From Fimbriimonadaceae bacterium (lineage in GTDB: Bacteria > Armatimonadota > Fimbriimonadia > Fimbriimonadales > Fimbriimonadaceae), in contig JABAQM010000001.1 of NCBI GenBank assembly GCA_019187105.1, forward strand, positions 1,488,001 to 1,552,000: a stretch of DNA of 64,000 nt, given 5' to 3'. This document shows positions 13,051 through 15,260 of this stretch, one piece after another (position 1 is the stretch's first letter; every line of letters begins with the position of its first letter). A program made the position numbers and the translations under genes. The notes under the pieces were generated by a model, which searched no databases, was not told the origin of the DNA, and saw nothing but the letters and a program-made list of their open reading frames with translations.

Positions 13051-13152
13051 GTATCAGGAACTCCCTTGTCCACAGCTTGGATGAGGGAGTGACTGATCCT
13101 CAAACCGGTCTCCAGAAGGAACGAATCGTCGGTTTTCGACGATAATATGGGT

Positions 13153-13599
13153 ATGCGATCGATCCTGAAGATCTCTCTCGGCGCGGCCATACTCGGCGCG
13201 TCACTCATGGCAAACGCCGGCGGAGAAGGCTGGCTCACCGACTGGAACGAGGCCGTAAAGCAGTCGAAGAAGACCGGCAAGCCCATCCTCGCCGATTTCA
13301 CCGGCTCGGACTGGTGCGGCTGGTGCATCAAGCTCAATAAGGAAGTTTTCTCGACCAAGGAATTCAAGACCTGGGCCGCGAAGAATGTGATTCTGCTCGA
13401 AGTCGATTTTCCGAACAGCAAGCCGCAGTCCGACAAGCTGAAGAAGCAGAACGATATGCTGCAGAAGAAGTTCAACATCGAGGGCTTCCCCACGATCGTC
13501 TTCATGAATGCTTCAGGCAAGGAAATCGGTCGCTCCGGCTACAAGGAAGGCGGGCCCAAGGCATGGACCTCTGACGCCGCCAAAATCATCAAGAAGTAA
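13153..13599 (+). CDS. Secreted thioredoxin-like protein with CGWC motif
   Basis: The product of 148 residues starts with a signal peptide (about 1-22, ending LMANA). It has a thioredoxin fold with DWCGWC as the redox motif (C at about 50 and 53) and the cis-proline segment GFPTIVF. It matches the thioredoxin_7 / DUF255-like group that reduces periplasmic or secreted substrates. The ATG at 13153 is preferred over 13147 because TAATAT (13143-13148) would be a -10 box 4 bases upstream and overlaps the earlier ATG. The neighbours do not name a substrate. Confidence 0.83.
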   Translation: MRSILKISLGAAILGASLMANAGGEGWLTDWNEAVKQSKKTGKPILADFTGSDWCGWCIKLNKEVFSTKEFKTWAAKNVILLEVDFPNSKPQSDKLKKQNDMLQKKFNIEGFPTIVFMNASGKEIGRSGYKEGGPKAWTSDAAKIIKK

Positions 13600-14010: not shown

Positions 14011-15249
14011 CTACTTGCGCAGATAAACCCAGACGAAGCCCGTTGCCTCGGGCTGCGCTTCTAGCTTTCCGATTTCGGTGTAGAGCTTGCTCTGGCGGTT
14101 AGCGTCGATCTTCATAGCCTTGATCTGCTTGTCGTATTCCGTCATCAAGGCCTTCTGGTAGCTCTTTGCTTTCTCGGGAGTTAGATTGCGGGAGCTCTTT
14201 TCACCGATCGACTTGAGAGCCGCTTGGTCTGCCTTCTGGTAAGCCGCGTTGTATTTCTTCTGAGCTTCCTCCATCTCCTTCTTCAGCTTGGCCAGGCGCG
14301 ATTTCTCGGCGGCGGTTAGCTTCTTGGGGATGGCGGCGATTTGCGTGAAGTCGCCGAGAAGGAGGTCCAGCTTGCCGTCTCCGTTCCAGTCGGCTGCGAA
14401 GGGCTTGACGCGAACGCCTGGTCGCAAGGTCTTCATGCCGCCCGGACCTTTCGGGTCGCGCTCAACCGGCTTCCACGCTTCTTCCTCTTTCTTAATCGGG
14501 AGCAGAGCCTGCGCGGCGCCGAGATCGAGCTTCCCTTTCTCCTTCCCAGGGTACAAGTGGACGTTGCCGGCAGCGTCGCCGATCAGAAGGTCGAGGATGC
14601 CGTCGCCATTCCAATCGACAATGCACGGCCCGCCGTCGTTGGCTGCCAGCGGCTTGCCCTCGGCCGTGAAATCACCTGCCTTGGTGAAGTGGCCCTTGCC
14701 ATCGTTGATCATAAGCCGGATCGGTCCAGAGATTTGGCCGACTGCCATATCCGCATCGCCATCGCCGTCCCAGTCGCCGCCACAAGGCGAAAGGGCGAGC
14801 TCATGACTCTCATAAGCGACGTTCTTGGCAATGAGCTTGGATTCCTTATCGAACTTCCCTTTACCGAGGCCCTTGAAGAAGGAAACTCCGCCGCTATACG
14901 AGCCGGAAATCAAGTCTGCGATGTTGTCGCCGTCGAGGTCCACGAACCGTGGAACCGCGCCGATGCATCACCCAGACTCGACGGTGACTTCTTTGCCGTC
15001 GGCCTTGACGGTTTCGAAGCCCGAGAATTTCGGCTGGCCGGCTACGCCGACATTACGATAAAGCCGAATCACGCCTGGACTGAACGTCCCGACAACAAGA
15101 TCCTTCAGACCATCTTCGTCAAAGTCGTAAAGGATGGGGGCCAAGTGTCCGACCGGCGCCTGAATAGGCTTGCCATCGGCTTCTGCTAGAAAGGGCTCGT
15201 GCAGGTCGCCTGAAGCGACGGTGAGCGCGAGAGCAGCGAAGAATATCAT
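14011..15249 (-). CDS. Secreted FG-GAP/VCBS-repeat protein with in-frame UGA (candidate selenoprotein)
   Basis: Read through one TGA (14970-14968), this frame encodes 412 residues. It has a signal peptide (about 1-14), then FG-GAP/VCBS-type repeats with DxDxDG calcium-loop motifs: DFDEDGLKDLVVG, DLDGDNIADLISG, DWDGDGDADMAVG, DWNGDGILDLLIG and DWNGDGKLDLLLG. A Lys/Glu-rich coiled coil follows (about 300-390). The second repeat begins right after the TGA. The codon after it is TGC, so readthrough as selenocysteine would give a Sec-Cys pair (ESG-U-C-IGAVPRF). Both halves keep the same frame and show no other lesion. A good Shine-Dalgarno (GGAGGT, 6 bases before the ATG) is present. A SECIS-like hairpin lies at 14937-14956. 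Alternatives are a nonsense mutation of a Cys codon (pseudogene) or two separate peptides; the only start for the second (GTG 14943) has no ribosome site. No sel genes are in this window. Confidence 0.72.
14937..14956 (-). promoter_or_regulatory. Candidate bacterial SECIS hairpin
   Basis: On the minus strand, counting the U of UGA as 1, bases 15-17 (GGU) pair with 32-34 (ACC), U18 bulges, bases 19-22 (CCAC) pair with 28-31 (GUGG), and the apical loop is GGUUC (23-27). From established knowledge, the E. coli fdhF SECIS has GGU at 15-17, a bulged U at 17/18 and a GGUC loop at 22-25 that contacts SelB. The match in position and shape is close. The element is only 20 bases, so chance cannot be excluded without relatives. 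Confidence 0.6.
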
Positions 15250-15254
15250 GAGTT

Positions 15255-15260
15255 ACCTCC
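15255..15260 (-). promoter_or_regulatory. Shine-Dalgarno site of the candidate selenoprotein gene
   Basis: GGAGGT on the minus strand ends 5-6 bases before the ATG at 15249. It is one of the best ribosome sites in the window, which argues that this interrupted gene is still translated. Confidence 0.7.

Follow-up and report, generated by a model that had tools for sequence, protein, structure and literature searches.

A probable exported selenoprotein of the VCBS/FG-GAP propeller type from Fimbriimonadaceae, with a vicinal Sec–Cys pair and belonging to an apparently undescribed family

The 64-kb stretch of Fimbriimonadaceae DNA analysed here (hereafter the window) carries on its minus strand an open frame that starts with ATG at 15249 and ends with TAG at 14013–14011. 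The sole internal stop of this frame is a TGA at 14970–14968 (codon 94), directly followed by TGC. These coordinates, the lone in-frame TGA and the adjoining TGC had been given in the initial annotation and proved exact on re-reading. The features of the locus are as follows.

14011–15249, minus strand: putative selenoprotein gene, 412 residues with Sec94, stop TAG; supported by full-length homologues
15255–15260, minus strand: Shine–Dalgarno GGAGGT, 5 bases upstream of ATG; read from the sequence
15208–15249, minus strand: N-terminal export signal, weak in the window protein; lipoprotein-type in the relatives L027, L028 and L033
14314–15153, minus strand: predicted VCBS/FG-GAP propeller, residues 33–312 (Pfam, AlphaFold2, Foldseek)
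14062–14313, minus strand: predicted long helical hairpin, residues 313–396, within blade 5; absent from L033, L034 and L054
14968–14970, minus strand: UGA codon, very probably read as selenocysteine, residue 94; TGA throughout the 19 UGA members, with Cys instead in L025 and L035
14965–14967, minus strand: TGC, Cys95, partner in the putative vicinal Sec–Cys pair; Cys in all site-covering members
14939–14953, minus strand: candidate bSECIS hairpin UCCACG-GUU-CGUGGA, with the loop starting 20 nt after the UGA; constraints of the published model (PMC13188914)

The Shine–Dalgarno previously noted for the gene was borne out by GGAGGT at this position. The signal peptide claimed for the protein was upheld in part: the window protein's own signal is weak and devoid of basic residues, whereas export is backed by the relatives. 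Lipoprotein-type signals begin L027, L028 and L033 (e.g. MRERTTAVLLLGTTALVAGC), and an extracytoplasmic location of the protein is thereby supported.

A secreted thioredoxin-like protein (Thioredoxin_7, WCGWC motif) is encoded at 13147–13599 on the plus strand, convergent with the selenoprotein gene; its best NCBIfam model is DsbH, with a score under the cut-off of that model. A functional tie between the two genes was considered and dropped, as no such neighbour is conserved in relatives. More generally, no gene neighbours are broadly kept around the family gene, and with this variability the genomic context hints at no function. A scan of other TGA-joined frames in the window returned no convincing second selenoprotein.

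Homologues were searched with the read-through of the UGA in 291 genomes of the phylum, and the search was repeated with a profile. The family is sharply bounded: in 18 genomes the best match reaches E 7e-53 or lower, and the next-scoring matches, at E 1.7e-34, are generic VCBS proteins. TGA occupies one shared alignment column in 19 sequences from 16 genomes, a count that includes a paralogue from the genome of the window (L049) and a second copy in each of the genomes G107 and G126. Two further relatives, L025 (genome G077) and L035 (G102), carry a Cys codon in this column. All UGA members read G-U-C-[IV], and the motif G-[U/C]-C-[I/V]-[G/A] is found in every site-covering member; the generic VCBS proteins that come next in score have neither a UC/CC pair nor a G-[UC]-C-[IV]-G motif. 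The proposal that relatives would show either TGA in place with kept flanks or Cys forming a CC pair was thus confirmed, and the residue at the UGA position is U or C in all site-covering relatives, never an unrelated one. Identities of the relatives to the window protein range from 32 to 65%, reaching down to about 32% among site-covering members. As TGA is kept at such identities, we regard a stop arisen by chance, or a sequencing error common to all, as out of the question.

In the best tree both Cys sequences nest apart among Sec branches, requiring 2 changes. L025 and L035 would accordingly represent two separate Sec/Cys exchanges, in each of which the RNA hairpin has decayed and Sec genes are still found in the genome. 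The paralogue (L049/L101; G000:C1:888778-890013) is 40% identical to the window protein and has a UGA–Cys pair and RNA hairpin of its own. A short subfamily (L033, L034 and L054; 313–351 aa) is devoid of the helical hairpin and retains the Sec site. Outside the phylum-wide set, a search of viral contigs gave generic VCBS matches alone (24–37%), and a single-sequence scan of genome contigs gave one generic VCBS match (24%), in Aquirufa.

A single stop in an otherwise open frame, together with the existence of Cys homologues, could also arise by a nonsense mutation in which a Cys codon turned into TGA, leaving an early pseudogene. This alternative, which the initial annotation had stated as TGC/TGT to TGA, is refuted by the recurrence of TGA across genomes: the codon is kept in 19 sequences, the paralogue among them, at identities down to about 32%. 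Moreover, comparison with L020, the nearest relative, gave an NG86 dN/dS of 0.11 for the part ahead of the TGA and 0.18 for the part behind it, rough values as dS is near saturation; the latter value indicates that purifying selection continues downstream. The pseudogene was therefore rejected and retains a vanishingly small probability. The open frame around the TGA would equally suit a reassigned code, in which TGA is an ordinary Trp or Cys codon throughout the lineage. Still, TGA terminates 12 of the 41 window ORFs of at least 250 aa as well as several family members, and the alternative residue in the UGA column is Cys, always beside Cys. With TGA serving as an ordinary stop in the same genome, code reassignment was rejected as well and is hardly credible.

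The UGA is followed by an RNA hairpin at a fixed distance in every family member that carries TGA. With the U of UGA numbered as 1, columns 18–23 pair with columns 27–32 around a GUU or GGU loop. The published bSECIS model specifies a loop of 3–9 nt with G in the first two loop positions, a stem of 4–16 bp, a spacing of 16–37 nt and an MFE of −7.5 or lower (PMC13188914). In agreement with this description, the family shows a GUU/GGU loop, at least four core pairs in 19/19 sequences and a spacing of 20 nt, and the 48-nt stretches of its UGA members fold at −10.5 to −20.8. The earlier expectation of a SECIS after the TGA was hence substantiated by a hairpin of the published type, including compensatory change. 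An Rfam scan of the region returned nothing above the gathering score.

The core pairs 19–22/28–31 are formed in all 19 UGA sequences. Pair 21/29 is A–U in 10, G–C in 8 and C–G in 1, and is broken in none (0/19). Column 21 falls on the third position of a Pro codon (CCA, CCG or CCC), where changes are synonymous, and column 29 on the second position of a codon for Val, Ala or Gly; a synonymous base thus tracks an amino-acid change 8 nt on, and selection therefore acts on the RNA. For the whole stem, covariation amounted to 0.273 versus 0.123 in shuffled controls (0/500 reached 0.273), and to at most 0.137 for slid versions of the stem. The real genes form 5.5/6 pairs versus a mean of 3.4/6 in synonymous-codon shuffles of each gene. 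The mean folding z-score against synonymous shuffles is just −1.4. On a protein tree built leaving out the hairpin columns, the central pair changes at least 5 times, but the independent contrasts with good branch support are too few to give significance in a sign test. In L029, L032 and L055 four pairs are left, and both ends of the six-pair stem are without standard pairs at the fixed register. The two Cys members deviate further: the stem of L025 contains one mismatch and two G–U pairs, and that of L035 has two pairs only, as expected where Sec insertion is no longer needed. The maintenance of the hairpin by compensatory change is an additional point against the nonsense mutation discussed above.

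The genome of the window (99.55% complete) contains selA (L007, 444.6 bits), selB (L001, 355 bits), selD (L008, 347.3 bits, with an in-frame UGA of its own) and a tRNA-Sec with anticodon UCA (L011, detected by Rfam and ARAGORN). The proposed check for selA, selB, selC and selD thus returned all four, and the presence of this tRNA also speaks against a reassigned code. The selD gene, at L008:1501-2409 (minus strand), is itself a selenoprotein gene, with its UGA within SCAG-U-ASK. Across the phylum, selB was found in 16/16 genomes with a UGA member versus 7 of the 26 tested relatives without the family gene. The corresponding figure for selA is 15/16, the exception being G004, an assembly of about 1060 contigs; among six selB-less relatives selA was found in none. 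Of the genomes with a Cys member, G077 has both selA and selB, and in G102 (68% complete) selA was found and selB was not. As Sec genes persist in both, loss of the machinery does not explain the Cys codon there. In these bacteria, the family provides a clear reason for retaining Sec machinery.

In summary, the assignment of UGA 94 to Sec, proposed earlier for this gene, is backed by the conserved TGA, the hairpin and the presence of selA/B/C/D. Judged from comparative sequence data, the gene very probably encodes an exported selenoprotein of a real and apparently undescribed family.

The read-through protein matches FG-GAP_3 (Pfam PF13517) with 94.5 bits against a cut-off of 26.9 (5.7e-27, three stretches), and all 22 aligned members match PF13517 at E ≤ 0.001. 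An AlphaFold2 model based on 22 sequences shows strands for five blades at a mean pLDDT of 89.8, with blades predicted on either side of the TGA. One FG-GAP/VCBS protein spanning the TGA, as originally described, is thus consistent with both analyses. The last strands of blade 5 come after the helical hairpin. Foldseek identified VCBS-type propellers such as PVL lectin (E 6.6e-8, with low TM-scores of about 0.35); PVL lectin (4up4) is the best solved match, and CRTAC1 (9etn) appears lower down. The predicted model places Sec94–Cys95 in the loop that leads into the inner strand of blade 2. Conserved residues occupy the loops at equivalent positions in other blades, namely His35 (20/20), Asp205 (18/21), Arg280 (20/21) and Lys282 (20/21). 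As read from blade topology, His35, Sec94, Asp205, Arg280 and Lys282 may face one channel mouth.

These data suggest the following sequence of events. By analogy to established bacterial biology, SelB would attach to the downstream hairpin (loop from 20 nt after the UGA) and bring Sec-tRNA(Sec) to the ribosome at UGA 94. Sec would be inserted at this codon and the protein exported thereafter, to fold as the predicted five-bladed VCBS-type propeller with calcium-loop (DxDxDG) repeats. In the loop ahead of the blade 2 inner strand, Sec94 and Cys95 may then form a vicinal selenol–thiol or selenylsulfide pair, with the equivalent loops of other blades bringing His35, in most members Asp205, and Arg280/Lys282 round the same channel mouth. 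Such a site could perform thiol–disulfide or peroxide chemistry outside the cytoplasm, or grip a soft metal or metalloid. We consider it reasonably probable that the Sec–Cys pair serves as a reactive site for redox chemistry or soft-metal binding. The wider proposal of an undescribed class of extracytoplasmic selenoenzymes, in which the pair together with His35, Asp205 and Arg280/Lys282 constitutes a reactive site at the channel mouth, is more tentative, albeit a genuine possibility. If true, a fold that is mostly known from binding proteins would here serve catalysis.

Two other readings accept the selenoprotein and differ in what the Sec residue is for. The Sec–Cys pair may be structural or serve metal storage, in a propeller whose main ligand would be a glycan or a protein partner. 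In favour of this, the closest solved structures belong to lectins and to propellers acting as scaffolds (PVL lectin 4up4, CRTAC1 9etn), and Sec is replaced by Cys in two lineages that keep selA. Conversely, bacterial proteins that contain Sec usually have it at a reactive site, and in the equivalent loops the His is invariant and the Arg and Lys are nearly so; on balance this second role appears rather unlikely. The UGA might instead act as a selenium-sensing switch, with the short product made without selenium as the regulated outcome. UGA recoding does depend on selenium supply. However, the part downstream of the UGA, which comprises four of the five blades, is conserved, and the 93-residue product would correspond to one blade and is unlikely to fold, leaving such a switch very improbable. 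We favour the reactive-site reading of the pair.

New bacterial selenoprotein families turn up only occasionally, and this one is found repeatedly in a lineage in which selenium use has apparently received little study. Automatic annotation likely breaks every copy in two at the UGA, leaving a 93-residue remnant and a shortened VCBS protein; the family is therefore probably misannotated in these genomes. NCBIfam (June 2026) gave no credible match to the protein, and nothing relevant emerged from the main texts of the open-access literature on selenoproteins with FG-GAP/VCBS, Armatimonadetes or Fimbriimonad-. A 2026 inventory lists 119 prokaryotic selenoprotein families or subfamilies, none of them a VCBS, FG-GAP or propeller entry, and reports a thioredoxin-like fold in most characterized selenoprotein families (PMC13188914). 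The suspected novelty of the family thus held within the inventory, NCBIfam and the open-access full-text literature.

Compared to known SelB/bSECIS selenoproteins such as formate dehydrogenase and SelD, the family is alike in its in-frame UGA, the accompanying selA/B/C/D and Cys homologues, and a hairpin with a GUU/GGU loop starting 20 nt downstream; it differs in that neither the protein family nor its fold appears in the list of 119 (PMC13188914). With VCBS/FG-GAP propellers (PF13517, PF01839; PVL lectin, CRTAC1, integrin alpha) it shares the repeat, calcium loops and fold, whereas generic ones are without the G-[UC]-C-[IV]-G motif, and no propeller of this kind is listed as a selenoprotein. 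A G-U motif is held in common with the hypothetical protein DG selenoprotein (NF049953, GUxG motif), which is described without a conserved domain; running NF049953 on the genome of the window gave no match, and its controls gave no signal either. A vicinal Cys/Sec pair likewise occurs in the CU-type selenoproteins (HgcA, SaoL, SaoC, KCU-star and MbdU; Table 1 of PMC13188914), but the order here is U–C, and the host proteins are unrelated, with no NCBIfam match. In the new family, Sec would belong to a vicinal U–C pair in a propeller located outside the cytoplasm.
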